Source of the DNA: a virus
IMG/VR virus record: IMGVR_UViG_3300009147_000104
Span: 1-26,405 of that record
Direction: 5' to 3' (one strand)
Length of the DNA stretch: 26,405 nt
Position numbers and translations under genes: made by a program. This document shows positions 1 to 17,700 of the stretch, piece by piece; within the stretch, counting starts at the first letter, position 1, and the number at the start of each line of letters is the position of its first letter. Below the pieces are notes generated by a model. That model was not told the origin of the DNA. It made no database searches and saw nothing but the letters and a program-made list of their open reading frames with translations.

Positions 1-1577
1 AGGTTCTCAGCGAATTGCTTATCCAATATGTATGTGATGGCGTAGTCTTCCCGATGCCTTACTGCCCGTCCTGCCATCTGAATGATGGTACGGATGGCAT
101 GCATGGCGTACCAGTTACCGCCACCAGGAGCGTACAGCCTAGCACCTACCCGCTTATCACCCTTGTTGGGCCACGGTACCTTAGCGATCACCTGCACTCT
201 GCAAAGATCGTTAGGAAGATCAACTCCCCTATCCATACTAGCAGCGATAAGTACAGCACCAGGGTAAGCTTTATATTCTTCAAGGGCGGCATCTTTAGCC
301 CTAGAATTAGTGTAGGTAACAAGACGCCGCCGACTATGATCGTCAATACCGCTACCGGGAACATGATGGCGGAGTACTTCATAAAGATACAGAGCAAGTT
401 CGTAAGAGACAGTGTGGATAAGAATACGCTCATCGGGATGCCTCTTTAGCACTCCATTGATAGCTCTAGCCAACTTGGGCCGCTCTGTATCTTTGTTGGT
501 ATTCGTCACATCAGCTAGAGGTACCACGTGGACAGGACGATTCTCTGCCGGGAAGTTACTCGGGACATCTAGCAAATCGTATGCCCTACCAGTGAGGGTT
601 AGCCCCAACTCATCCGCCATCACATCACCAGTGAGGATAGTAGCGGACATAACAAGGAACTTACGCCCGTTCTGCCAGAGCAACTCTTCCCCGTGTTCCC
701 TCACGAATACTGGTCTAAAGATGACGTCCCCTCTGTGCTGGTACCCGTCATACACCCACTTGCCTCTCGGGATAGCTAGCCTGACTCGCCGCATCTGAGC
801 CACAAGATCACCCATATACTTAATCTCACGGATGGTCTGGCGGTCAGTAGCTTCCTCTAGTATGGGCAGTGTATCAAGGTATTCCTGAGACTTCGGCAAT
901 GCTTCATCATTGATCCACATCGCCCATGTGTCGTCTTTAGTCTTATACTTAGGAGGGGAGATATGTAGCCGTTCCATCCGACGATTAGTCAGGTGTAGTT
1001 CTGTGTGATTGAGTAGCTCTGACTCTAGTACGTCAGCCTCGTCCAGCACGTACAAATCTCTATTACTAAAGCGGCGAGGCCCTCCACTATCCGTGAGCAG
1101 ATATGAAGAGTTAAGGACAGCCAGTCTCGCTGAAGTTGCAGCCCCTCTAGCCCTGATGTATGGACAATGGTTTCTGTTGTCACACCAGCCACAGATCCCT
1201 GTCTCGTAATTGAACGTGCAATCATGGGCGGTCACAGCCTCATCAATACTATCCACCTCTTCTCCCATCTCACCAACCATGCCCATAGTAGTGAGATAGT
1301 TTCTACGACCCTTTAGCACCTTGGCATACGGGAAGTCCCTAACGAACTGGTCCTGTAGTGCCTTGGTGGTACAGCTATAGATGGTCTTCGCTCCCAACTT
1401 CCGAGCTATCAACTCGGCAATCAGCGTCTTACCAACCCCTGTAGGAGCCTGTAGGAATACCACGTCGTTAATAGGGTGACCATTCCTCCCCCGGAACCGA
1501 TCAACAACATCACTAACGATATGCTGCTGTGATTCCAGTCGGGTAGGGTCCACCCATGCGGGGAGAGGCTCAACCAT
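1..1577 (-). CDS. DinG/XPD-like superfamily 2 DNA helicase (3' end outside window)
   Basis: ATP-dependent DNA helicase, probably used in phage replication or repair. Seen in the translation: Walker A APTGVGKT at residues 44-51; a four-cysteine cluster at C120, C129, C132 and C138 placed between Walker A and the DEAD box, as in the iron-sulfur domain of XPD/DinG helicases; DEAD at 179-182; a later SAT motif; and QMAGRAVR near residue 500, matching motif VI. 525 codons are present and the C-terminus is cut by the window edge. The ATG at 1577 overlaps the end of the upstream 67-aa gene (stop at 1570), so the two are translationally coupled. The family assignment rests on motif order. The iron-sulfur cluster is inferred from cysteine spacing. 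Confidence 0.9.
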   Translation of the reverse strand, partial: MVEPLPAWVDPTRLESQQHIVSDVVDRFRGRNGHPINDVVFLQAPTGVGKTLIAELIARKLGAKTIYSCTTKALQDQFVRDFPYAKVLKGRRNYLTTMGMVGEMGEEVDSIDEAVTAHDCTFNYETGICGWCDNRNHCPYIRARGAATSARLAVLNSSYLLTDSGGPRRFSNRDLYVLDEADVLESELLNHTELHLTNRRMERLHISPPKYKTKDDTWAMWINDEALPKSQEYLDTLPILEEATDRQTIREIKYMGDLVAQMRRVRLAIPRGKWVYDGYQHRGDVIFRPVFVREHGEELLWQNGRKFLVMSATILTGDVMADELGLTLTGRAYDLLDVPSNFPAENRPVHVVPLADVTNTNKDTERPKLARAINGVLKRHPDERILIHTVSYELALYLYEVLRHHVPGSGIDDHSRRRLVTYTNSRAKDAALEEYKAYPGAVLIAASMDRGVDLPNDLCRVQVIAKVPWPNKGDKRVGARLYAPGGGNWYAMHAIRTIIQMAGRAVRHREDYAITYILDKQFAEN

Positions 1578-1773
1578 CTAGATAATCCTTGGTCATATGC
1601 TTTACCACAGCCCTTATACCATCTAGTTTGGCTATCATCACAGCGTTGTCCGACATCAAGTCGCCCAACCTGCTCACGATGTTATAGACGACCCTACGTT
1701 CTATGTAGTCAGTGTTTCCCTTAACGTAGTTAGCAGCCTTCTCTAGATCCTCTTGGGTTACTAGCTCAGCCAT
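1570..1773 (-). CDS. Small hypothetical protein, 67 aa
   Basis: Not recognised. It is a helical, charged protein beginning MAELVTQEDLEKAANYVKG, with no cysteine cluster or membrane segment. I chose the ATG at 1773 because GGGAG lies 6 bases upstream, and because it overlaps the end of the preceding 183-aa gene by 8 bases. A longer in-frame start at 1818 has no clear ribosome site. The gene overlaps the helicase start by 8 bases, so the three genes form one coupled unit. Its place between a possible DNA-binding protein and a helicase suggests a role in DNA metabolism, but nothing in the sequence proves it. Confidence 0.7.
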   Translation of the reverse strand: MAELVTQEDLEKAANYVKGNTDYIERRVVYNIVSRLGDLMSDNAVMIAKLDGIRAVVKHMTKDYLDG

Positions 1774-2317
1774 AGATAGCTCCCAGCCGTTCCACAAGAA
1801 CCTCAGCCCACTGAGCATAGTCTTCAGGGTTATTCTCTGCCCACTTGTCGAGATACTTATTGATATCCTCTTCCTTATACCTAACAGGCTTAGGCCCGGG
1901 AGGGAGAGGCATATCCATACCGATAGACGGTGCTGGTCCCCTTGCCGGGTACTGATGGGCTTCAGCTATGTAGTTCTCAGTAGGCCGTTCAATCATCCTG
2001 GGTGTGTGTCCGTTCAGGTTCACATCATCCTTGAACTTGAACATGGTGAAATGAGAGCCTGCCTTAATAGGAGCAACCTCAGCGTACCCTTCCTTGACCA
2101 GCCGCATCATAGCGTTTCGCAACTGGCGACTTCCGCCATACGTGGCAGTGTCCATCAGTTCCACGCCATGTTCACACAGGTACTCCCAAATAGCAACTAC
2201 AACGTTCTCGTCATCCTTCCAGGGGTTGCGGCCCCGTCGATTGGTTGCCCATGCTAGAGCATCAACATTCTGTCGGGTAGTCTTATACACCTTGCCCTTC
2301 AGCTTGATATCTCTCAC
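1766..2317 (-). CDS. Hypothetical protein with possible winged-helix domain, 183 aa
   Basis: Starts with GTG, preceded by AGGAGAG at 5 bases. Residues about 30-100 look like a winged-helix fold: a helix (VVVAIWEYLCEHG), a second helical stretch with GGSRQLRNAMMRLVKEGY resembling a recognition helix, then a short beta-like AEVAPIKAGSHFTMFKF. The middle (about 105-140) is Pro-rich and probably flexible. The C-terminus is an acidic helix. It is the first gene downstream of the structured 380-base leader and is coupled to the 67-aa and helicase genes. A DNA-binding replication or regulatory role is inferred from fold impression and context only. Confidence 0.75.
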   Translation of the reverse strand: MRDIKLKGKVYKTTRQNVDALAWATNRRGRNPWKDDENVVVAIWEYLCEHGVELMDTATYGGSRQLRNAMMRLVKEGYAEVAPIKAGSHFTMFKFKDDVNLNGHTPRMIERPTENYIAEAHQYPARGPAPSIGMDMPLPPGPKPVRYKEEDINKYLDKWAENNPEDYAQWAEVLVERLGAIYG

Positions 2318-2361
2318 CGTACTCTCCTATCGTCACTTTGTGTATAGGGTCGACAAATAGC

Positions 2362-2435
2362 GAAGGGGAGCACTAAGGATCCAGCCACGTACCGGGGGCT
2401 ATATAGTACGTAGGATCGACTTAGCACTCCCCTTC
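2362..2435 (-). terminator. Large nested hairpin, terminator-like
   Basis: Outer arms GAAGGGGAGCACTAAG (2362-2377) and CTTAGCACTCCCCTTC (2420-2435) match at 14 of 16 positions in DNA. In minus-strand RNA both mismatches become G-U wobbles, giving 16 unbroken pairs; in plus-strand RNA they stay C-A mismatches. Inside it, ACGTAC (2387-2392) and GTACGT (2406-2411) form a second perfect stem. There is no good U-run after the stem, so it may be an attenuator or RNA stability element and not a plain terminator. It sits 45 bases before the GTG of the 183-aa gene. Confidence 0.55.
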
Positions 2436-2472
2436 AACTAGACCATCTTAAAGATGCTATCCCGGTTAGCAT
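2434..2472 (-). CDS. Possible 12-codon leader peptide
   Basis: A short frame, ATG to TGA, encoding MLTGIASLRWSS. Upstream is an AGGTAGGTAGGTAG run that could serve as a weak ribosome site. The start lies inside an 8-bp hairpin (2452-2459 with 2467-2474). Codons 8-12 cover the segment (2438-2451) that can pair with two alternative upstream partners. The stop codon overlaps the first base of the 2362-2435 hairpin. This is the layout of a translation-controlled attenuator, but translation is unproven and the ribosome site is not ideal. Confidence 0.3.
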   Translation of the reverse strand: MLTGIASLRWSS

Positions 2473-2530
2473 CTACCTACCTACCTGGGAGGGTTATAGT
2501 GATGGTCTAGATATACCACTTAAGATGGTC
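2438..2530 (-). promoter_or_regulatory. Mutually exclusive pairing elements (attenuator or operator candidate)
   Basis: Segment 2438-2451 pairs perfectly with 2501-2510 (CTAGACCATC with GATGGTCTAG, 10 bp) or with 2520-2530 (GACCATCTTAA with TTAAGATGGTC, 11 bp). The two pairings share seven bases and cannot coexist. The heptamer GACCATC therefore occurs three times, once inverted relative to the other two. It could be an RNA switch in the helicase-operon leader or a three-site protein operator. The sequence alone does not decide. Confidence 0.45.
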
Positions 2531-2697
2531 CCCCGGGAACAGCTAGTACGTGGGCCAAAGAGTAGCTGCGCCTCAGGCTACTGCTACAGCCTCTCTAACC
2601 GCTCCCAGGGGGTATGACCACCATGTTACACGCCCGTGCGACACATGCCAACCTGCGATCGCCGGCGGACGAAATTACCCTGCTCTCATACCCCCTC

Positions 2698-3018
2698 TCA
2701 TACTTGCTCTCGACGCATGATCGTTTCTATAGCTGTATACTGAGCGGCTAACCATCGTGCTGCCAGTAGACGACGTGGGGGCTTATCTATTAACCAATCT
2801 GCCCACTGCTGATATGGCAGACCGGATAGGTACAAGAAAGCCGCTCGTACTTCTATTGGCTCTATAGTCAAATCTATGTCGGTGGATGATGCAGTCAAGT
2901 CCACAGGCTGATTCCCTGGTGATATATCTGTATGTTCGTACTGCCGACTGTACGCAGGTGGTCCATATAAGGGTCTTGTATCGGGCGAGGGTATTCCGGA
3001 GTCCATCGGGGAAGTCAT
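2698..3018 (-). CDS. Hypothetical protein, 106 aa
   Basis: Not recognised. The translation begins MTSPMDSGIPSPDTRPLYG, has a Pro/Ser-rich first third, an acidic middle, and a basic helical C-terminus with WADWLIDKPPRRLL. I chose the ATG at 3018 because GGGAG lies 7 bases upstream. A further in-frame ATG at 3042 has no good site. The frame overlaps a second plausible one (2783-3124) by 236 bases. This one looks protein-like through its C-terminus, while the other does so only in its first 40-odd residues. A frameshift joining the two is possible. It ends just before the structured leader of the helicase operon. Confidence 0.55.
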   Translation of the reverse strand: MTSPMDSGIPSPDTRPLYGPPAYSRQYEHTDISPGNQPVDLTASSTDIDLTIEPIEVRAAFLYLSGLPYQQWADWLIDKPPRRLLAARWLAAQYTAIETIMRREQV

Positions 3019-3124
3019 ACTTAGTCTCCCAGAAATCGTCATCTCGTCTAACTCTTGACGTCACGATCTTCATTCCTACGCTCGCCTTGCCCATCTTCAT
3101 TGGTGGGCGAATCTGTAAGTCCAT
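2783..3124 (-). CDS. Possible overlapping hypothetical protein, 113 aa
   Basis: The first part of the translation (MDLQIRPPMKMGKASVGMKI and on through DDDFWETKYDFPDGL) reads like a genuine protein. After about residue 45 it becomes Arg/Ser/Ile-rich and looks like an out-of-frame shadow of the 106-aa gene. CGAGGA lies about 11 bases upstream of the ATG. Options are a short true gene with an extreme overlap, the 5' part of a single gene joined to the 2698-3018 frame by a programmed or accidental frameshift, or pure chance. I give it low confidence as an independent gene. Confidence 0.3.
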   Translation of the reverse strand: MDLQIRPPMKMGKASVGMKIVTSRVRRDDDFWETKYDFPDGLRNTLARYKTLIWTTCVQSAVRTYRYITRESACGLDCIIHRHRFDYRANRSTSGFLVPIRSAISAVGRLVNR

Positions 3125-4706: not shown

Positions 4707-5327
4707 TCAACTTGCTTTCTTAGCTTTGACCTCATCTAGCGCAGTAAACATGCGCCGCTCAAAGACAGTAGGATCCTCAGGAACATCACCTGGCTTGTGT
4801 CCCCACCTGTCATTCATGATGGTCCACATGCTGTCGATCGTCTTTGGTGATGCAGTGAACTTGCCCCTAAATCTCCCAGGGAACTTTAGCTCCCAATCGG
4901 CTGTCATTCGCTTAGGCCGTAACTCTTCACACCATTGCTGGTAAACCCTTAGCGCTTCCTCTACCTCTACCTCTCGCAATGCCCCTTCACTGTTAGGGAG
5001 CATGTTGCAAGTAGCCAACATCGCAACCTCGTCTGTATGGCTAAAGGTAGAGAGCATGTTGGCAACGAGAATGTCAGGCCGGTCCTTGTTCCTCTCTTTG
5101 AACTTCCTGGCTGTCACTCTCTGTTGTGGAGAGATAATGCCTATCCATACCTTACTCATACCCACCTTGTTTAGGTATAAGCGAGTGGCCCATATGCGTC
5201 TGATGATCAAGGTTCTCCAACACCTTTGACATGTAGGCTTCATGCACTGGTAAGGGACATCTAGATAGGTACCATCTTCATGTTCACCAAAGAGTCTGAG
5301 ATTAGCTACGTCACAGCTAATTGTCAC
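4707..5327 (-). CDS. Hypothetical protein with CxxxxCxxC motif, 206 aa
   Basis: Not recognised. Starts with GTG, with GGAG 5 bases upstream. Near the N-terminus, C28, C33 and C36 (CMKPTCQRCW) look like three ligands of a zinc site. A hydrophobic strand follows (VWIGIIS), then a helical region with an acidic stretch (EGALREVEVEEALRVYQQW) and a Lys-rich C-terminus. An N-terminal Cys motif followed by such a strand recalls some plasmid Rep proteins, but there is no HUH motif, so I do not call it one. Three copies of CTGTGACA lie upstream. It is a single-gene unit between two long non-coding gaps. Confidence 0.65.
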   Translation of the reverse strand: MTISCDVANLRLFGEHEDGTYLDVPYQCMKPTCQRCWRTLIIRRIWATRLYLNKVGMSKVWIGIISPQQRVTARKFKERNKDRPDILVANMLSTFSHTDEVAMLATCNMLPNSEGALREVEVEEALRVYQQWCEELRPKRMTADWELKFPGRFRGKFTASPKTIDSMWTIMNDRWGHKPGDVPEDPTVFERRMFTALDEVKAKKAS

Positions 5328-5373
5328 CTGTGCTCCGGGGGTGCCCTCGGCCGAAAACGAACAGACGTTCCCA

Positions 5374-5424
5374 TGTCACAGAAACCGGTGTAGTAGTTAT
5401 CTAGTATCTCCGGTATCTGTGACA
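5374..5424. repeat. Inverted repeat TGTCACAGA/TCTGTGACA, with a third copy nearby
   Basis: TGTCACAGA (5374-5382) and TCTGTGACA (5416-5424) are perfect inverses. Both are followed inward, past one mismatch, by ACCGG/CCGGT, giving 14 of 15 pairs. A third CTGTGACA is at 5454-5461, 37 bases from the second. This resembles repressor or activator sites controlling the leftward 206-aa gene. Confidence 0.5.
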
Positions 5425-5470
5425 CTCGGCGGAAGCCAGATTACACCCTGTAGCTGTGACAATCCAGGCC

Positions 5471-5498
5471 TTGACCTGTAAATATCAGCATGTACAGT
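5471..5498 (+). promoter_or_regulatory. Promoter-like sequence facing the nested hairpin
   Basis: TTGACC (5471-5476), a 16-base spacer, then TACAGT (5493-5498) on the plus strand. The only thing immediately downstream is the 5502-5570 hairpin, with no plus-strand gene after it. A transcript starting near 5504 would be a short structured RNA of about 70-80 bases. It could also be chance. Confidence 0.25.
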
Positions 5499-5501
5499 AA
5501 G

Positions 5502-5570
5502 AAAGCCCCGGAGAATGAGTGCTCGATACGTCCGTCACTACGTATCTAGAAGCACCGTCTCCGGGGCTTT
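5502..5570 (-). terminator. Nested bidirectional terminator-like hairpin
   Basis: AAAGCCCCGGAG (5502-5513) and CTCCGGGGCTTT (5559-5570) form a perfect 12-bp stem. Inside are GTGCT/AGCAC (5519-5523, 5551-5555) and ATACGT/ACGTAT (5526-5531, 5540-5545), so almost the whole element pairs. In the minus direction it is followed by TTTCTTACT and sits 17 bases after the last gene of the HTH-to-membrane-peptide operon. It is an efficient terminator candidate in both directions. Confidence 0.75.
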
Positions 5571-5587
5571 ACTTATGATGTGTGTGA

Positions 5588-5749
5588 TTAGCTCTTCCTG
5601 GTGATCTTGTGGCGGGTATATGAGACTGCCCTATACGCATGGTTAACAACACCAATTACCAGCCACATCAGCACGATTGTCCACCACATCAGCATCAACC
5701 ACTCACCCAATGAGAACTGCTGAGTGAGCACTCCTACAATTTCCAACAT
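5588..5749 (-). CDS. Small membrane protein, 53 aa
   Basis: Translation begins MLEIVGVLTQQFSLGEWLML, continues with a strongly hydrophobic Trp/Met/Leu/Val segment (residues about 17-35) and ends in a basic tail (YRAVSYTRHKITRKS). This is one membrane span with a positive C-terminus, so the tail probably faces the cytoplasm. AGG lies about 9 bases upstream of the ATG. It is the last gene of the operon, just before the terminator hairpin, and starts 6 bases after the 47-aa gene. Phage one-span proteins can be holin-like, superinfection-exclusion or host-takeover factors; nothing here decides between them. Confidence 0.65.
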   Translation of the reverse strand: MLEIVGVLTQQFSLGEWLMLMWWTIVLMWLVIGVVNHAYRAVSYTRHKITRKS

Positions 5750-7196: not shown

Positions 7197-7225
7197 AGTG
7201 TACAGGCTCGGGCCGGAATTCCGGC
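7197..7225 (-). promoter_or_regulatory. Possible -10 and perfect 14-bp palindromic operator
   Basis: GCCGGAATTCCGGC at 7212-7225 is a perfect palindrome. TACACT on the minus strand (7202-7197) is a fair -10 element that would start transcription within a few bases of the HTH gene ATG. The -35 position shows no consensus. The palindrome would fall between -35 and -10, the classic place for a repressor site. Confidence 0.35.
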
Positions 7226-7305
7226 GGCTCACCAGGATCTAGGCAGGGGTGCGGTGTCCGCTCGCTCCGGGCCGTCCAGAGCCTCAGAGAGATCCCTTAA
7301 ACGCA

Positions 7306-7339
7306 GAAACCCCCTAGCCCGATTGGACTAGGGGGTTTC
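7306..7339 (-). terminator. Rho-independent terminator
   Basis: GAAACCCCCTAG (7306-7317) and CTAGGGGGTTTC (7328-7339) form a perfect 12-bp stem with a 10-base loop. In the minus direction it is followed by a T-containing tail (TTTCTGCGTTT). It lies 13 bases after the 74-aa gene stop and closes that operon. The stem is symmetric enough to act on plus-strand transcripts too. Confidence 0.85.
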
Positions 7340-7351
7340 TTATGCGTATGG

Positions 7352-7576
7352 CTATGTAGTGGTGTCTCTATGGCTTACCACTGGCTCATCGGAACGGTAT
7401 CTAGGTTCGTTCCTCATCCGTTCCACCCATTGCACAAAGTCAGGGTTCAAACGGTCAGCATCAATGACCATAGACCGTTCCTGCCTAGCTAGGTACTCAG
7501 CTAGACCTATGGGATTGGTTGATGTGCGAGGGTGAAGGTGTGACCACTTCATAGCTCGTCGGTTCTCACCCTTCAT
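7352..7576 (-). CDS. Hypothetical protein, 74 aa
   Basis: Not recognised. The protein is basic and Arg-rich (MKGENRRAMKWSHLHPRTST at the N-terminus; WVERMRNEPRYRSDEPVVSH near the end), with a central helix LAEYLARQERSMVIDADRL. The ATG overlaps the TGA of the preceding 63-aa gene (ATGA), with AGGG about 8 bases upstream. It ends 13 bases before a strong terminator, so the two genes form a short operon. Confidence 0.65.
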   Translation of the reverse strand: MKGENRRAMKWSHLHPRTSTNPIGLAEYLARQERSMVIDADRLNPDFVQWVERMRNEPRYRSDEPVVSHRDTTT

Positions 7577-7764
7577 GACTTCATCCCTGTCATGGCGTCA
7601 GCTTCCCGACCTTTCATGATGAGTAGCAAAGCCTCATCGCTAACAGTCCATCCGAGAGTCTTGACTTCAGTGTGCGTCATTTGCCATCTACCGTCATGCT
7701 CTCGGTAGTAGACATCAAACGTCTCGCCATTCTTCAGCGTCACGGTATGGATGGGTGTATCCAC
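7573..7764 (-). CDS. Hypothetical protein, 63 aa
   Basis: Not recognised. The N-terminal half is beta-like (IHTVTLKNGETFDVYYREHD), followed by WQMTHTEVKTLGW and a short helix (SDEALLLIMKGREADAM). Starts with GTG; AAAGGA lies 9 bases upstream. It is the first gene of a two-gene operon between hairpins 7802-7843 and 7306-7339. Confidence 0.65.
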   Translation of the reverse strand: MDTPIHTVTLKNGETFDVYYREHDGRWQMTHTEVKTLGWTVSDEALLLIMKGREADAMTGMKS

Positions 7765-7801
7765 TGTTCATCATCCTTTCTTAGTAGCTAGTTGCTACTG
7801 A

Positions 7802-7843
7802 GACACCCAACCACCTAGCAACGTTGGTAAGTGGTTAGGTGTC
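7802..7843 (-). terminator. Terminator-like hairpin between units
   Basis: GACACCCAACCAC (7802-7814) pairs with GTGGTTAGGTGTC (7831-7843). The single DNA mismatch (C opposite A) becomes a U-G wobble in minus-strand RNA, giving 13 unbroken pairs on that strand only. It follows the 155-aa gene by 10 bases. There is no U-run, so it may be a processing or stability hairpin. Confidence 0.6.
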
Positions 7844-7852
7844 AGATTCCAA

Positions 7853-8320
7853 CTAGCCCATCATGTAGTGCGGTAGGGATTCGTTATCCATCAGTCCGAC
7901 ATGATGTGTGTCTGCCCAATTCTTACGGCCACGCTTGCCTAGATCCTCCTCGTGATCACTGAAGTGATGAGGATGGAACGGAGCGGGGAAGTCATAAGTG
8001 GTAGTGGTCCTGAAGAATTCCCTAGCGTCATGGCAGATCATCTCTGCCTCTAGGTTGATGACTTCCTCAAGGATGCGACGCATCATGGTCAACTCTGTCC
8101 AATCATCACCTAGCCTGAAGTGGACAGTACGATCAAACACACTACGTCCAGCATCACTCAGTGAGCGGGTATAGCCAGGGAATGAGTCACTATCGACAGC
8201 ATCCCAAAGGATTTGGACGTAACAGTGATCGCTACTAACGCTGTAGCTTGCAAGTTGGAACGTCCAACCTGGCTTATAGATGAGCCGAGACACCAGTTCC
8301 CTCGCATCATCCGTATTCAT
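7853..8320 (-). CDS. Hypothetical protein, 155 aa
   Basis: Not recognised by function. It is a soluble acidic protein: an N-terminal helix (MNTDDARELVSRLIYKPGWT), beta strands (FQLASYSVSSDHCYVQILWD), a helical middle (WTELTMMRRILEEVINLEAE) and a His-rich C-terminus (FPAPFHPHHFSDHEED). GGGAGG lies 7 bases before the ATG; the same CTGGGAGGG string precedes the 168-aa gene. It is monocistronic between two hairpins. The His-rich end might bind metal, but there is no defined motif. Confidence 0.7.
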   Translation of the reverse strand: MNTDDARELVSRLIYKPGWTFQLASYSVSSDHCYVQILWDAVDSDSFPGYTRSLSDAGRSVFDRTVHFRLGDDWTELTMMRRILEEVINLEAEMICHDAREFFRTTTTYDFPAPFHPHHFSDHEEDLGKRGRKNWADTHHVGLMDNESLPHYMMG

Positions 8321-8370
8321 GTTTCACCCTCCCAGGTGTGTTAGCAGTCACCGTTGCAGTAACTACTAGG

Positions 8371-8407
8371 AAGCGCTCAGAACCCTCTAGATCGGCCCTG
8401 AGCGCTT
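8371..8407 (-). terminator. Terminator-like hairpin
   Basis: AAGCGCTCAG (8371-8380) and CTGAGCGCTT (8398-8407) form a perfect 10-bp stem with a 17-base loop, 5 bases after the 29-aa gene stop. In the minus direction the stem ends CGCTTCC, with no long U-run. Confidence 0.65.
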
Positions 8408-8411
8408 CTAA

Positions 8412-8501
8412 CTAGCGACTACTGGTGTTGACGTACCTAGCGAGCCACATGACCGCTAGAACGCTTAGAGATGCCCATACAAGTGCGTAGACGACAGGCA
8501 T
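8412..8501 (-). CDS. Tiny membrane peptide, 29 aa
   Basis: Encodes MPVVYALVWASLSVLAVMWL followed by ARYVNTSSR: one membrane span of about 20 residues with a short, positively charged tail. The ATG overlaps the TGA of the 101-aa gene (TGATG), which supports coupled translation. A hairpin follows directly. Placed at the end of a transcription unit like the 53-aa membrane protein. The role is unknown. Confidence 0.5.
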   Translation of the reverse strand: MPVVYALVWASLSVLAVMWLARYVNTSSR

Positions 8502-8806
8502 CACTCTGTCCCCACGATGGTCAGATACTCAGCACCACCCTGCCGGCTGTAGTAGTAGGGCAGTCTTAGTTCCCTGAGTATCTGATTCATGCCACCTTGA
8601 TCACTCACGCTTCCCCATCCAACACTCAGATAGAGAGTGCTTAGGTCAGGGGAACCGTCATCTTTGAACGTCACGCTCAACATGTTGTGTCCGTCATGCC
8701 AGACGTCCAGAGTCTTTCGGCCGTTGGTATCTGTGCTGTGATAGCTGACCCAACTGTTACCACTTCCTGCGTTGCCTGCTTTGTGTGCTAGCTGTGAGAT
8801 CCTCAT
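8501..8806 (-). CDS. Hypothetical protein, 101 aa
   Basis: Not recognised. After MRISQLAHKAGNAGSGNSWV it looks beta-rich (WVSYHSTDTNGRKTLDVWHD, then LSVTFKDDG and LSTLYLSVGWG), ending with a Tyr-rich LPYYYSRQGGAEYLTIVG. I chose the ATG at 8806 because it overlaps the previous stop (ATGA). An upstream in-frame ATG at 8821 has no ribosome site. Middle gene of a three-gene unit. Confidence 0.68.
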   Translation of the reverse strand: MRISQLAHKAGNAGSGNSWVSYHSTDTNGRKTLDVWHDGHNMLSVTFKDDGSPDLSTLYLSVGWGSVSDQGGMNQILRELRLPYYYSRQGGAEYLTIVGTE

Positions 8807-9309
8807 GAGTGGAACGACCATGTGCCAGGCATGGGAGCATCAACCGGAATGTTCCACTCGTGCCTATCCCATGTCACCTTAGCTGTAACATCACGCTTGT
8901 TTGTCCCGTGATGTGTGTAGGTGACTGTTGCACAAGACTTGATTGCCTCAGCCTTATCATTATCACTGAGATAGTATTCATAGCCTTGTGTGCTTCCACA
9001 CTTCTCGCACTTCCTACGATCCTCATGCCAGATGAGTCCATAGACAAAGCCAGCGTTACCGCTCTGTCGACGTTCACTGTCCGCATACTCTGCGACGAAC
9101 AGGCTCAACTCGCCATCCTTTGACACAACAGCATGTGAACCAAAGAAACGGTTATTGAGTGCGATGAGATTGTGGAACAGGGAATCCATAGCCTTTATGA
9201 CCTTATCGTCACTCTGGCCGTAGTAGCTTCCCAACTGCCACACTCTCTCTCGCATCGCAGTGATTGTGTCGACAGCAGCATCTGTCAACTCAACTACTCG
9301 GGTATCCAT
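8803..9309 (-). CDS. Hypothetical protein with CxxC, 168 aa
   Basis: Not recognised. Begins MDTRVVELTDAAVDTITAMR with an N-terminal helical part, then a beta-rich region. CEKCGSTQGYEYY near the middle is a zinc-knuckle-like CxxC, and one further Cys follows. The ATG at 9309 has GGGAGG 7 bases upstream, so the longer frame from 9381 is unlikely. It is the first gene after the leftward promoter, with a leader of about 230 bases containing a hairpin at 9366-9397. First-expressed phage genes often target host functions, but nothing in the sequence says which. Confidence 0.7.
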   Translation of the reverse strand: MDTRVVELTDAAVDTITAMRERVWQLGSYYGQSDDKVIKAMDSLFHNLIALNNRFFGSHAVVSKDGELSLFVAEYADSERRQSGNAGFVYGLIWHEDRRKCEKCGSTQGYEYYLSDNDKAEAIKSCATVTYTHHGTNKRDVTAKVTWDRHEWNIPVDAPMPGTWSFHS

Positions 9310-9365
9310 AGCTTTCCCTCCCAGGGATTGACTACTCTTCAGGCTGTATCCGTCACGACACAGCG

Positions 9366-9397: not shown

Positions 9398-9423
9398 TTC
9401 GTATCTCCACATGGGAGGAAAGG

Positions 9424-9510
9424 ATGAGGAATAACTACAACCTACAGCCTGTCATCACGACGGTTGGTGGGGCGCTCGTTATTCCGTTGTCAAGGTGCTG
9501 TGATCCCTAG
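9424..9510 (+). CDS. Possible 28-aa peptide with strong ribosome site
   Basis: Plus-strand frame beginning MRNNYNLQPVITTVGGALVI, with GGGAGGAAAGG directly upstream (GGGAGG, spacing about 5). It lies opposite the leftward leader and has no recognisable partner or promoter. The ribosome site is better than for most genes here, which is why it is listed. It may be chance, since GGGAGG-like strings recur in this genome. Confidence 0.22.
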   Translation: MRNNYNLQPVITTVGGALVIPLSRCCDP

Positions 9511-9546: not shown

Positions 9547-9575
9547 ATCCTACCACGGTCCCTACACACTTGCAA
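9547..9575 (-). promoter_or_regulatory. Leftward early promoter candidate
   Basis: Minus strand: TTGCAA (9575-9570), a 17-base spacer, TAGGAT (9552-9547). This is the best -35/-10 pair in the window. The predicted start is near 9540 and would serve the 168-aa, 101-aa and 29-aa genes. The -35 overlaps the first 13-bp repeat, so a protein bound to the repeats could repress or activate it. Confidence 0.6.
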
Positions 9576-14710: not shown

Positions 14711-17700
14711 TGCCGAGCGATCCCGCAAACACCAATCCATTCAACGAGATACGCAACATTGAAGCTGTCATGTTGCGTCGTCGTGGTATCGAGGCGCAGG
14801 TCAGTCAGTTCACCCCAACGTCTGCTGCTCTTTACGCCAACTATGCCCGTGACTACCCGTGGATGCAGCCGGGTGTGGTCCGTGCTGCTTCTATGGCTGG
14901 CTACTACCCGAATAACCCTGACATGGTTAGGGTTGCAGCTACTTCACTAGCAGAAGCAGTAGCCTCAGGGCGTATCAATACCGGCAGTCGTACCCGTGCA
15001 TCCGAGCTAAATCCTGGTCGTCTTGATCCCCAGCTTGAGGCATCGGGTTACTTGCCTAGCCGCCCTCCTCCTGAACTGGTTGATGACCCGCTTAAGGAGT
15101 ACAGAGCCAAGGGTTACATCGACGAGGACAACAACCTGGTCCGTCCCGCACGCCCTAAGTACTCTGGCCGGAGGAATGGTAAGCCGGTTTGGGAGTACGA
15201 GAGTGACGAGGATAGGCAGGCTGATAAGGAATTCAAGGACCTTCTCCGCCTGATTTCAGATAACGAGGGGTCCACTAAGCCTATTCCCTTTATGCAGGAC
15301 GGGGACTGGTACAACTTCCATCCTAAGACCGGCAACACTGAAGTCATCAAGAGGGGCGACATCAGGACTGCCCTACTCCAATCACCCATTAACCGTGCAG
15401 GATCAGTACCAGTACTGGGTGAGGCTATTCAGGGTGTCCAGAACGTCGTGGAGCCGGCCTATCAGGTTGTCCAGCCAGTTGCCCGTACTGCTGGCATGAT
15501 CGCCAATGCGCCTATCCAAGAAATCCAGACCACCGGTCGAGCACTTCATGATGCAGTAGGACGTGTACAGCGGGAAGGGTTCGCTGCTGGCCTTAAGAGT
15601 GTCGGTAGGGAAGCCATTACCGCTGATCTTTCTGAGACTGATATTGCTATTGCTACCGAGGGTCTACTGTCCGGTGAAGATATAGATACAGGATCAGGGT
15701 TCTTTGTGTCTCCTACTTCCGAAGTTGCCAAAGAGAGAATGAGACGGGAAGCGGAACATGGACAGATCGGTGGGCACAACATCACCTGGGGACGATGGAT
15801 TGCTTCCGCTGTTACAGAGCCCGACACTGTTCCGTTTGATGTCATGTCCGGTTTCGTGGACTTCTCTATCCAGCTTGCAGATCCAACTTCTGTTGGACTT
15901 GGGAAGGCTGGACAGATCCGGAAGGCTCGGGGACTCTTTGAAGCTGAAGCCTTAGATCCACATCTAGCTGCTGGCATCCTTGGCTCTCGTGGTCGTCGCC
16001 CGTTTGTCGATTTCACTACTGCTCAGAAGGTGTTCGATTCACCTCGTGGTGCCAGAGCGGTTGAAGACATCACTTCCACAACCTCCGCTTACCAAATCGC
16101 TAAGAAGCTGAACAGTGGTAAGCTAGAATTCAAGCATGATCCCGCTTTATACGATGATCTTGCACGTACTACTGAGTCATCGGAAACCCGAGCTATCCTC
16201 ACTGATGCTATTGATCGTGGCGAGATCCGTGAGGTAGCTGATGTAACATCATCGTGGGGCCACGGTATCGCTGCTCATGTGCGCCCGCATATGCCTCGTT
16301 CTCGTCTTATGGACAAGATGCCGGGTATCGGTACTCATCTCCGTAACCCGGTAGAGACTATGAACCAGGTTATGCGGTCCTTCCGTAACGTCAATGCTCC
16401 GGAAGAGGCGCTAGAGGAAGCCTTCAACAAACTCTCTACCGCCCGCACTAAGTCCGGCCGTCGTAACACCATCATGGAAATCTTCGGCTCCGGACCTAAC
16501 TCTCTCCTTGCTCAACATAACATCCCTCAAGATGTTGCTGATCAGATGATGAGGCTCTATAAGACCAGCTTTAATGAGATGTGGCGTGGCCTTGTAGATG
16601 AGATGGGTGTAGAGGTTCCTACCTGGGAGAAGATGCTTGCTAACGGGGAAGAGACTCTTATCCCCGGTCCCCATGCACTCATCGAACTGGTAGAGGATTG
16701 GATGCCGTTCCCTGATCCTCGTGCCTTACGGGAGATTACCCGCCGCTTCCCTACTCTTACTTCCAAGCTTCCGGAAGATGGTGCTCTCCGTACTGCCGTA
16801 GAGCTTCCCGGCGCCTTTGTGGACTATATGCTGCAAGAGGTTTGGAAGCCTCTAGCGCTTGCACGTGGCGCATGGTTGGTCCGTGTACTGGGTGAAGGTC
16901 AGATCCGTATTGCCGCTGATGGGCTTGACTCTCTGTTCTCGGGTCATCCTCTGGAAGCGCTCGGGTTCATGCTGTCCAAGAAGAAGATCCCTACCGGCAA
17001 GATCCCAGGTCTGAGAGACATCGCTCCCCGTATCCCTAAATCTATCCAAGGCGAGAAATGGGACGAGGTTCTAGAGTACGATAGCTCCCTGTCTAAGGTC
17101 CATAACTGGGCGCATCGTCCCGGGGCTGCCGAGACAACTACCCAAACAACCCTTTACGCTAAGGGTCGTCATGCTGATCAAGAGTATCTGCATGCGTGGG
17201 CTAGGCAGCTAATGAAGTTCAACTATGACCCTGTCTACTCCCGCTGGATCAACTCCAACTCTCTAGATGAGATGATGGATTGGATGCAGCATGGTGAAGG
17301 TAGAGGGTTCGTCAGAGAACTACAGGAAGCCTTCCCTGGCAACCTGGAAACTCCTGCCCAACTTCGCACTTACTTGGACCAGATTGATCAGCGGTTCCAG
17401 TTCCTTGCTAAGGGTAACACTGACATCTTTGACACCCTCCGCAGTGGGGAATGGACTGATGCTGCCGGTGAGACTCACTCCATCTACCGGTCTGGCTCAC
17501 TAGCAGATGGCAATCCTGAACTGAACCCTGAATTCACCAAGTATCTCTCTCAGTTCATGGACGACGGACCTAACGTGGTTGTCGGTCGTATGCAGCAGGC
17601 CCTACGTGGCAAGTCCGACTATCCGGCCCTTAAGCGTTACGCTGTACAGAACTTCCTGTATGGCGCTATGTCTAAGTCTGAGAACCTTCTGGCACGTGGC

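Follow-up and report, generated by a model that had tools for sequence, protein, structure and literature searches.

A structured leader RNA ahead of a phage helicase unit carries a loop complementary to early ribosome-binding sites, a candidate antisense RNA for early-gene shut-off

Most explanations of how phages shut off their early genes invoke proteins or polymerase switching. Bacterial trans-acting RNAs derived from 5' untranslated regions exist, for example those derived from riboswitches, where a leader acts on other mRNAs, and the phage RNAs sar and OOP each serve as antisense to a single gene, from the strand opposite to it. The sar RNA of P22 and the OOP RNA of lambda pair with phage mRNAs to lower their expression, and the C4 RNA of phages P1 and P7 is a structured antisense RNA which, with complementary stretches probably located in loops, pairs around a ribosome-binding site and so prevents a phage gene from being translated (PMC12197685). 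The locus described here is the leader of a phage replication operon, and it displays a promoter match, a predicted fold, complementarity to early ribosome-binding sites and a joint change of loop and target across three phages. It is fairly probable, judged from these features, that the leader serves as an antisense RNA shutting off the first early genes once the replication operon is turned on.

The window, i.e. the whole stretch of DNA that was analysed, is a 26.4-kb phage record of IMG/VR (IMGVR_UViG_3300009147_000104) with a left minus-strand block facing a right plus-strand block, and the first gene of the right block encodes the terminase, which shows distant matches only, mostly to Streptomyces phages. 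The left block is of the early type and contains small unknown genes and genes for an HNH endonuclease, a DUF932 protein and a DinG/XPD-type helicase. The helicase had been named DinG-like in a preliminary description made from the sequence alone, and the matches to PF13307 (E 2.6e-22) and to phrog_2488, DNA helicase (E 1.4e-82), agree with this. The helicase unit has the order 183-aa gene, 82-aa gene and helicase, and the AlphaFold model of the 183-aa protein shows a helix-helix-helix-strand-strand pattern at low confidence (mean pLDDT 39.6). The leader region lies in the 380-nt gap between the 114-aa gene (2698-3042, minus strand) and the 183-aa gene (1766-2317, minus strand). All features are collected in the table.

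When viral contigs were searched for further relatives two contigs only were found, phage A (L002, IMGVR_UViG_3300050500_000062) and phage B (L003, IMGVR_UViG_3300020020_000072), and the comparison set is thus these two genomes and the window, all from uncultured phages. Phages A and B have the same gene order around the leader as the window, with neighbouring proteins that are 46-71% identical. DNA and protein searches of annotated phages gave no relative of the leader or of the flanking genes and left the window without a near relative, and no relatives were found in prokaryote genomes. Contig L006, with a distant and here uninformative DUF932 match, and contigs L011 and L020, with chance pattern matches, were rejected as relatives.

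Table. Features of the window that belong to the helicase leader and to the early genes.
Feature	Position	Strand	Remark
DinG/XPD-type helicase gene	3..1577	minus	extends past the record end; PF13307, phrog_2488
183-aa gene	1766..2317	minus	directly 3' of the leader; first gene of the helicase unit
Structured leader RNA of the 183-aa gene/helicase unit	2318..2616	minus	start predicted at about 2616; z -7.1 (sense) and -2.0 (antisense)
Leader hairpin 3 (GGGAG...CUCCC base)	2362..2435	minus	base stem covaries in three phages
12-codon frame MLTGIASLRWSS and stop	2434..2472	minus	not conserved
Leader hairpin 2, closed by CTAGACCATC/GATGGTCTAG	2438..2510	minus	encloses the anti-SD loop; inner hairpin at 2473-2453
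Anti-SD motif beta ACCCTCCCAGGT, 12 nt	2483..2494	minus	exact complement of early ribosome-binding sites
Alternative 5' strand GACCATCTTAA	2520..2530	minus	window-specific
Leader hairpin 1 (CCCCCUGGGAGCGGUUAG...CUAGCUGUUCCCGGGGG)	2530..2611	minus	in the MFE fold; at the 5' end
Conserved promoter (motif alpha), TTGGCA-17-TAACAT	2623..2651	minus	consensus match; aligned in both relatives
SD box GAAAGGATGA of gene 7573-7764	7771..7780	minus	complementary to the anti-SD of the first early leader
Target SD box ACCTGGGAGGGT of gene 7853-8320	8326..8337	minus	exactly complementary to beta over 12 nt
Target SD box CCTGGGAGGG of gene 8803-9306	9316..9325	minus	exactly complementary to beta over 10 nt
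Second anti-SD stretch TCATCCTTTCCTCCC	9413..9427	minus	part of the first early leader; matches the SD of gene 7573-7764 over 10 nt
Early promoter, same family as motif alpha, TTGCAA-17-TAGGAT	9547..9575	minus	conserved in both relatives

The strongest sequence match among the three gaps is about 40 nt long and holds a promoter-like site, motif alpha, which occurs once per genome. Its versions in A and B are TTGCGA-17-TAACGT and TTGCGG-17-TAACAT, respectively, with the place and the spacing seen in the window, and an initial reading of the motif as a conserved mini-protein was dropped because the fixed spacing fits a promoter. From the position of this promoter the leader RNA should start near 2616, giving predicted leaders of about 299 nt in the window, about 220 nt in A and 575 nt in B. 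The preliminary description had placed the region, as a folded leader, at the 5' end of the helicase unit, and this assignment is borne out by the conserved promoter upstream of the leader and by compensatory changes in the relatives, two checks that the description itself had set and that the region passes. Promoters of the same family, here TTGCAA/T-17-TAGKAT, head the minus-strand block in all three phages (at 9575 in the window, 8392 in A and 8458 in B). The early promoter of the window is overlapped by repeats GGGTGTATTGCAAGGGTGTGTTGCAAG (about 9600-9565, minus strand), which are possibly operator sites, and in phage A the conserved promoter is preceded by an extra, very long hairpin (L002 4520-4735) that is absent in the window and in B.

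RNA of the entire gap folds with unusual stability (z -4.9), as does that of the counterpart gaps in A and B. Folded from the predicted start and compared with shuffles, the sense strand gives z-scores of -7.1 in the window, -5.9 in A and -5.5 in B, and the antisense strand -2.0 in the window and in B, but -5.0 in A. The better folding of the sense strand in the window and in B favours a function of the minus-strand RNA, and a role at the DNA level, for example as an origin, is disfavoured for the same reason. The leader is predicted to form three hairpins, the first of which has a similar 5'-terminal counterpart in B. Hairpin 2 has the same plan in the window and in B, where six of the ten closing pairs are compensatory with both sides changed, and its counterpart in A is shorter, 7 bp. 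At the base of hairpin 3 all 13 pairs are kept in the three phages although 8 of the 13 positions differ among them, and 3' of this hairpin follow the SD and the start of the 183-aa gene. Hairpin 2 conserves its helix together with an inner sequence that can pair with the ribosome-binding sites of the earliest genes.

Long, strong hairpins are also present in many other minus-strand gaps (window 5320-5600, 7198-7360, 7765-7860 and 8310-8510), often two in tandem just 5' of the SD box, and the same is seen in both relatives. One of them, AGAAACCCCCTAGTCC...GGGCTAGGGGGTTTCT followed by GCGTTT (about 7340-7305, minus strand), is terminator-like, and similar AAAGAAACCCC hairpins are found near the matching place in A and B.

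The inner sequence, motif beta, is located in the loop region of hairpin 2, with several bases partly paired in the predicted ensemble, and in A and B it reads TCATCCTTTCCC in the same loop. In A, beta is exactly complementary to the box GGGAAAGGATGA of four early genes (13, 13, 13 and 12 nt) and in B to the same box of three early genes (13, 13 and 12 nt), so that loop and box pair as TCATCCTTTCCC/GGGAAAGGATGA in the relatives and as CCCTCCCAGG/CCTGGGAGGG in the window. The SD of window gene 7573-7764 is not matched by the helicase leader. The leader is encoded on the same strand as its targets, which are located upstream, about 6 kb away in the window. Duplexes of beta with the targets have predicted energies of -20 to -25 kcal/mol, whereas the 16S tail reaches about -11 kcal/mol at these sites. 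The possibility that beta is itself the SD box of a plus-strand gene was rejected, as no conserved plus-strand frame follows it. Since this leader stretch is exactly complementary to the ribosome-binding sites of the phage's own first genes, the leader RNA probably switches those genes off.

When each leader was compared with the whole minus strand of its own genome, the longest exact complements were the early-gene SD boxes in all three phages. In the reverse search, with the early SD regions against all minus-strand RNA, the loop was the only match of at least 10 nt to at least two genes in each genome, and the runners-up were shorter matches, the first early leader among them. The set of first early genes was delimited after the initial matches had been seen; the forward and reverse searches themselves scan all minus-strand RNA. 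Dinucleotide-shuffled leaders reached the observed match sum in 1, 0 and 0 of 5000 cases (window, A and B, respectively), and the SD regions of later minus-strand genes showed background matches of 5-9 nt. A 12-nt match is not rare at this genome size, and there is one to a late coding sequence at 16618 on the plus strand; the weight of the 12-nt match in the window comes from its location and recurrence, not from its length. The window leader matches its own boxes over 10-12 nt and the boxes of A and B over 5-8 nt, which is background and is what a joint change of loop and box would give. The loop and its target boxes changed together between the phages, by one independent change, that of the window, as A and B have an identical beta.

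The proposed antisense mechanism would begin with a leader RNA made from its own conserved promoter before the 183-aa gene and the helicase, in which the loop region of hairpin 2 should present the 12-nt complement of the early SD boxes. Once the replication operon is on, the leader would pair in trans with these boxes, and the pairing would block ribosomes, possibly accompanied by cleavage of the double strand, so that the early proteins are shut off. Transcription of the leader, pairing in trans, repression and timing are all predictions from the sequence. A wider proposal is more tentative, with a chance somewhat short of even: the phages may possess an RNA regulon, where the first early genes are recognised by an idiosyncratic SD box that they have in common, structured leaders with its exact complement silence the entire set together, and box and anti-box coevolve.

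The first early leader contains a second anti-SD stretch, which also folds imperfectly onto that leader's own SD, and shorter counterpart matches are found in A (8205) and B (8295). Together the two leaders cover the window SD boxes of genes 8803-9306, 7853-8320 and 7573-7764. All three phages conserve a motif TTGACAAY in this leader, 5' of the anti-SD (window about 9493-9486, minus strand).

The direction of control might also be the reverse, with the leader as a sensor, so that abundant early mRNAs bind the loop, refold the leader and switch on the 183-aa gene and the helicase, which would then be expressed only once early transcription has taken place. In phage A the loop region and the SD region of the leader itself can form a duplex (-23.4 kcal/mol), and do so in the MFE fold, which means that early mRNA could free this SD region there, and the window leader has two folds of near-equal energy. 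However, in the window (-7.2 kcal/mol) and in B (-8.7 kcal/mol) beta pairs only weakly with the SD of its own leader, this pairing is not conserved, and we regard this direction as unlikely. It is quite unlikely that the hairpins merely protect or process the mRNA and that pyrimidine-rich loops match the SD boxes by chance; many other intergenic stretches are indeed unusually folded in all three phages, but the shuffle, swap and reverse-search controls speak against coincidence, and the match goes past the bases required for ribosome binding.

The 3' strand that closes hairpin 2 can form two exact pairings, both noticed in the preliminary description, and as they share this strand they are mutually exclusive. 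The 11-bp pairing joins 2451-2441 (TTAAGATGGTC) with 2530-2520 (GACCATCTTAA) and the 10-bp pairing joins 2447-2438 (GATGGTCTAG) with 2510-2501 (CTAGACCATC), all on the minus strand, and such alternative stems occurred in 0 of 3000 dinucleotide shuffles, for the 97-nt segment or the 299-nt leader. In the window the RNA started at the promoter prefers the 2510-2501 pairing (p 0.91) and a short read-through RNA the 2530-2520 pairing (p 0.84-0.90), apparently because upstream GGGGGTATGA occupies the 5' end of the leader in the read-through RNA; this choice by start site is seen in the window only. These preferences bear on a long-range element in cis, where the loop and the SD boxes would pair inside one early read-through transcript. 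The targets are on the same strand as the leader and upstream of it, and the first early leader has a cis anti-SD beside its own SD, as such an element would suggest, but the conserved promoter directly precedes the leader, the promoter-started window leader mostly folds the conserved hairpin 2, and the short read-through transcripts tested prefer the other pairing, which makes an element of this kind decidedly improbable.

The preliminary description had looked to covariation in relatives, and this was found in part: hairpins 2 and 3 show compensatory changes, but the 2530-2520 pairing is without counterpart in A or B, where no second long partner for the shared strand was found. The 12-codon frame MLTGIASLRWSS is present at 2472-2437 (minus strand) with a stop at 2436-2434 that abuts hairpin 3, as described, and its length is in itself unremarkable; no SD-bearing counterpart is found in A, and B has an unrelated weak frame. 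The sequence 3' of hairpin 3 contains TTCGCTATTT, CTGTCCATTC and TTCGACCATT with no U-run terminator, and no intrinsic-terminator-like site of a stem and a U-run was found in the leader region. Classical attenuation, as first proposed for this leader, in which the position of the ribosome on the 12-codon peptide picks the pairing and so ends or continues transcription, is therefore scarcely credible, for although the alternative stems are real, exact and exclusive and hairpin 3 is where the frame stops, neither the peptide nor the second pairing is kept in the relatives, the region is without a terminator-like site, and the frame is without a run of regulatory codons.

If the antisense mechanism is true, one molecule would shut off early genes, coupled to the switching-on of the replication operon, making an unusual infection timer that consists of RNA only. 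It is predicted that paired changes of loop and box break and then restore repression, for which simple reporters suffice, and similar RNAs could be sought cheaply by scanning phage leaders for an exact complement of the phage's own SD boxes. Rfam 15, which includes phage antisense RNAs, gave no match at the gathering threshold, and a relaxed threshold gave unrelated matches at chance level; no description of one leader aimed at the shared SD box of several early genes was found in the open-access literature.

Compared with described systems, the leader resembles a trp-type attenuator in its two exclusive stems and short frame, but here the peptide and the second stem are not conserved and there is no U-run terminator. 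Like the RNAs derived from bacterial 5' untranslated regions it could act on other mRNAs, but no ligand-binding family was found in it. With sar and OOP it shares the complementarity of a phage RNA to phage mRNA, the repression being predicted here, but it and its targets share one strand, about 6 kb apart in the window, and it has several matches. The nearest known system is C4, likewise a structured phage RNA with complementarity around a ribosome-binding site; C4 targets the ant mRNA, whereas the present loop matches two to four early genes, and the present RNA is the leader of a downstream replication operon.
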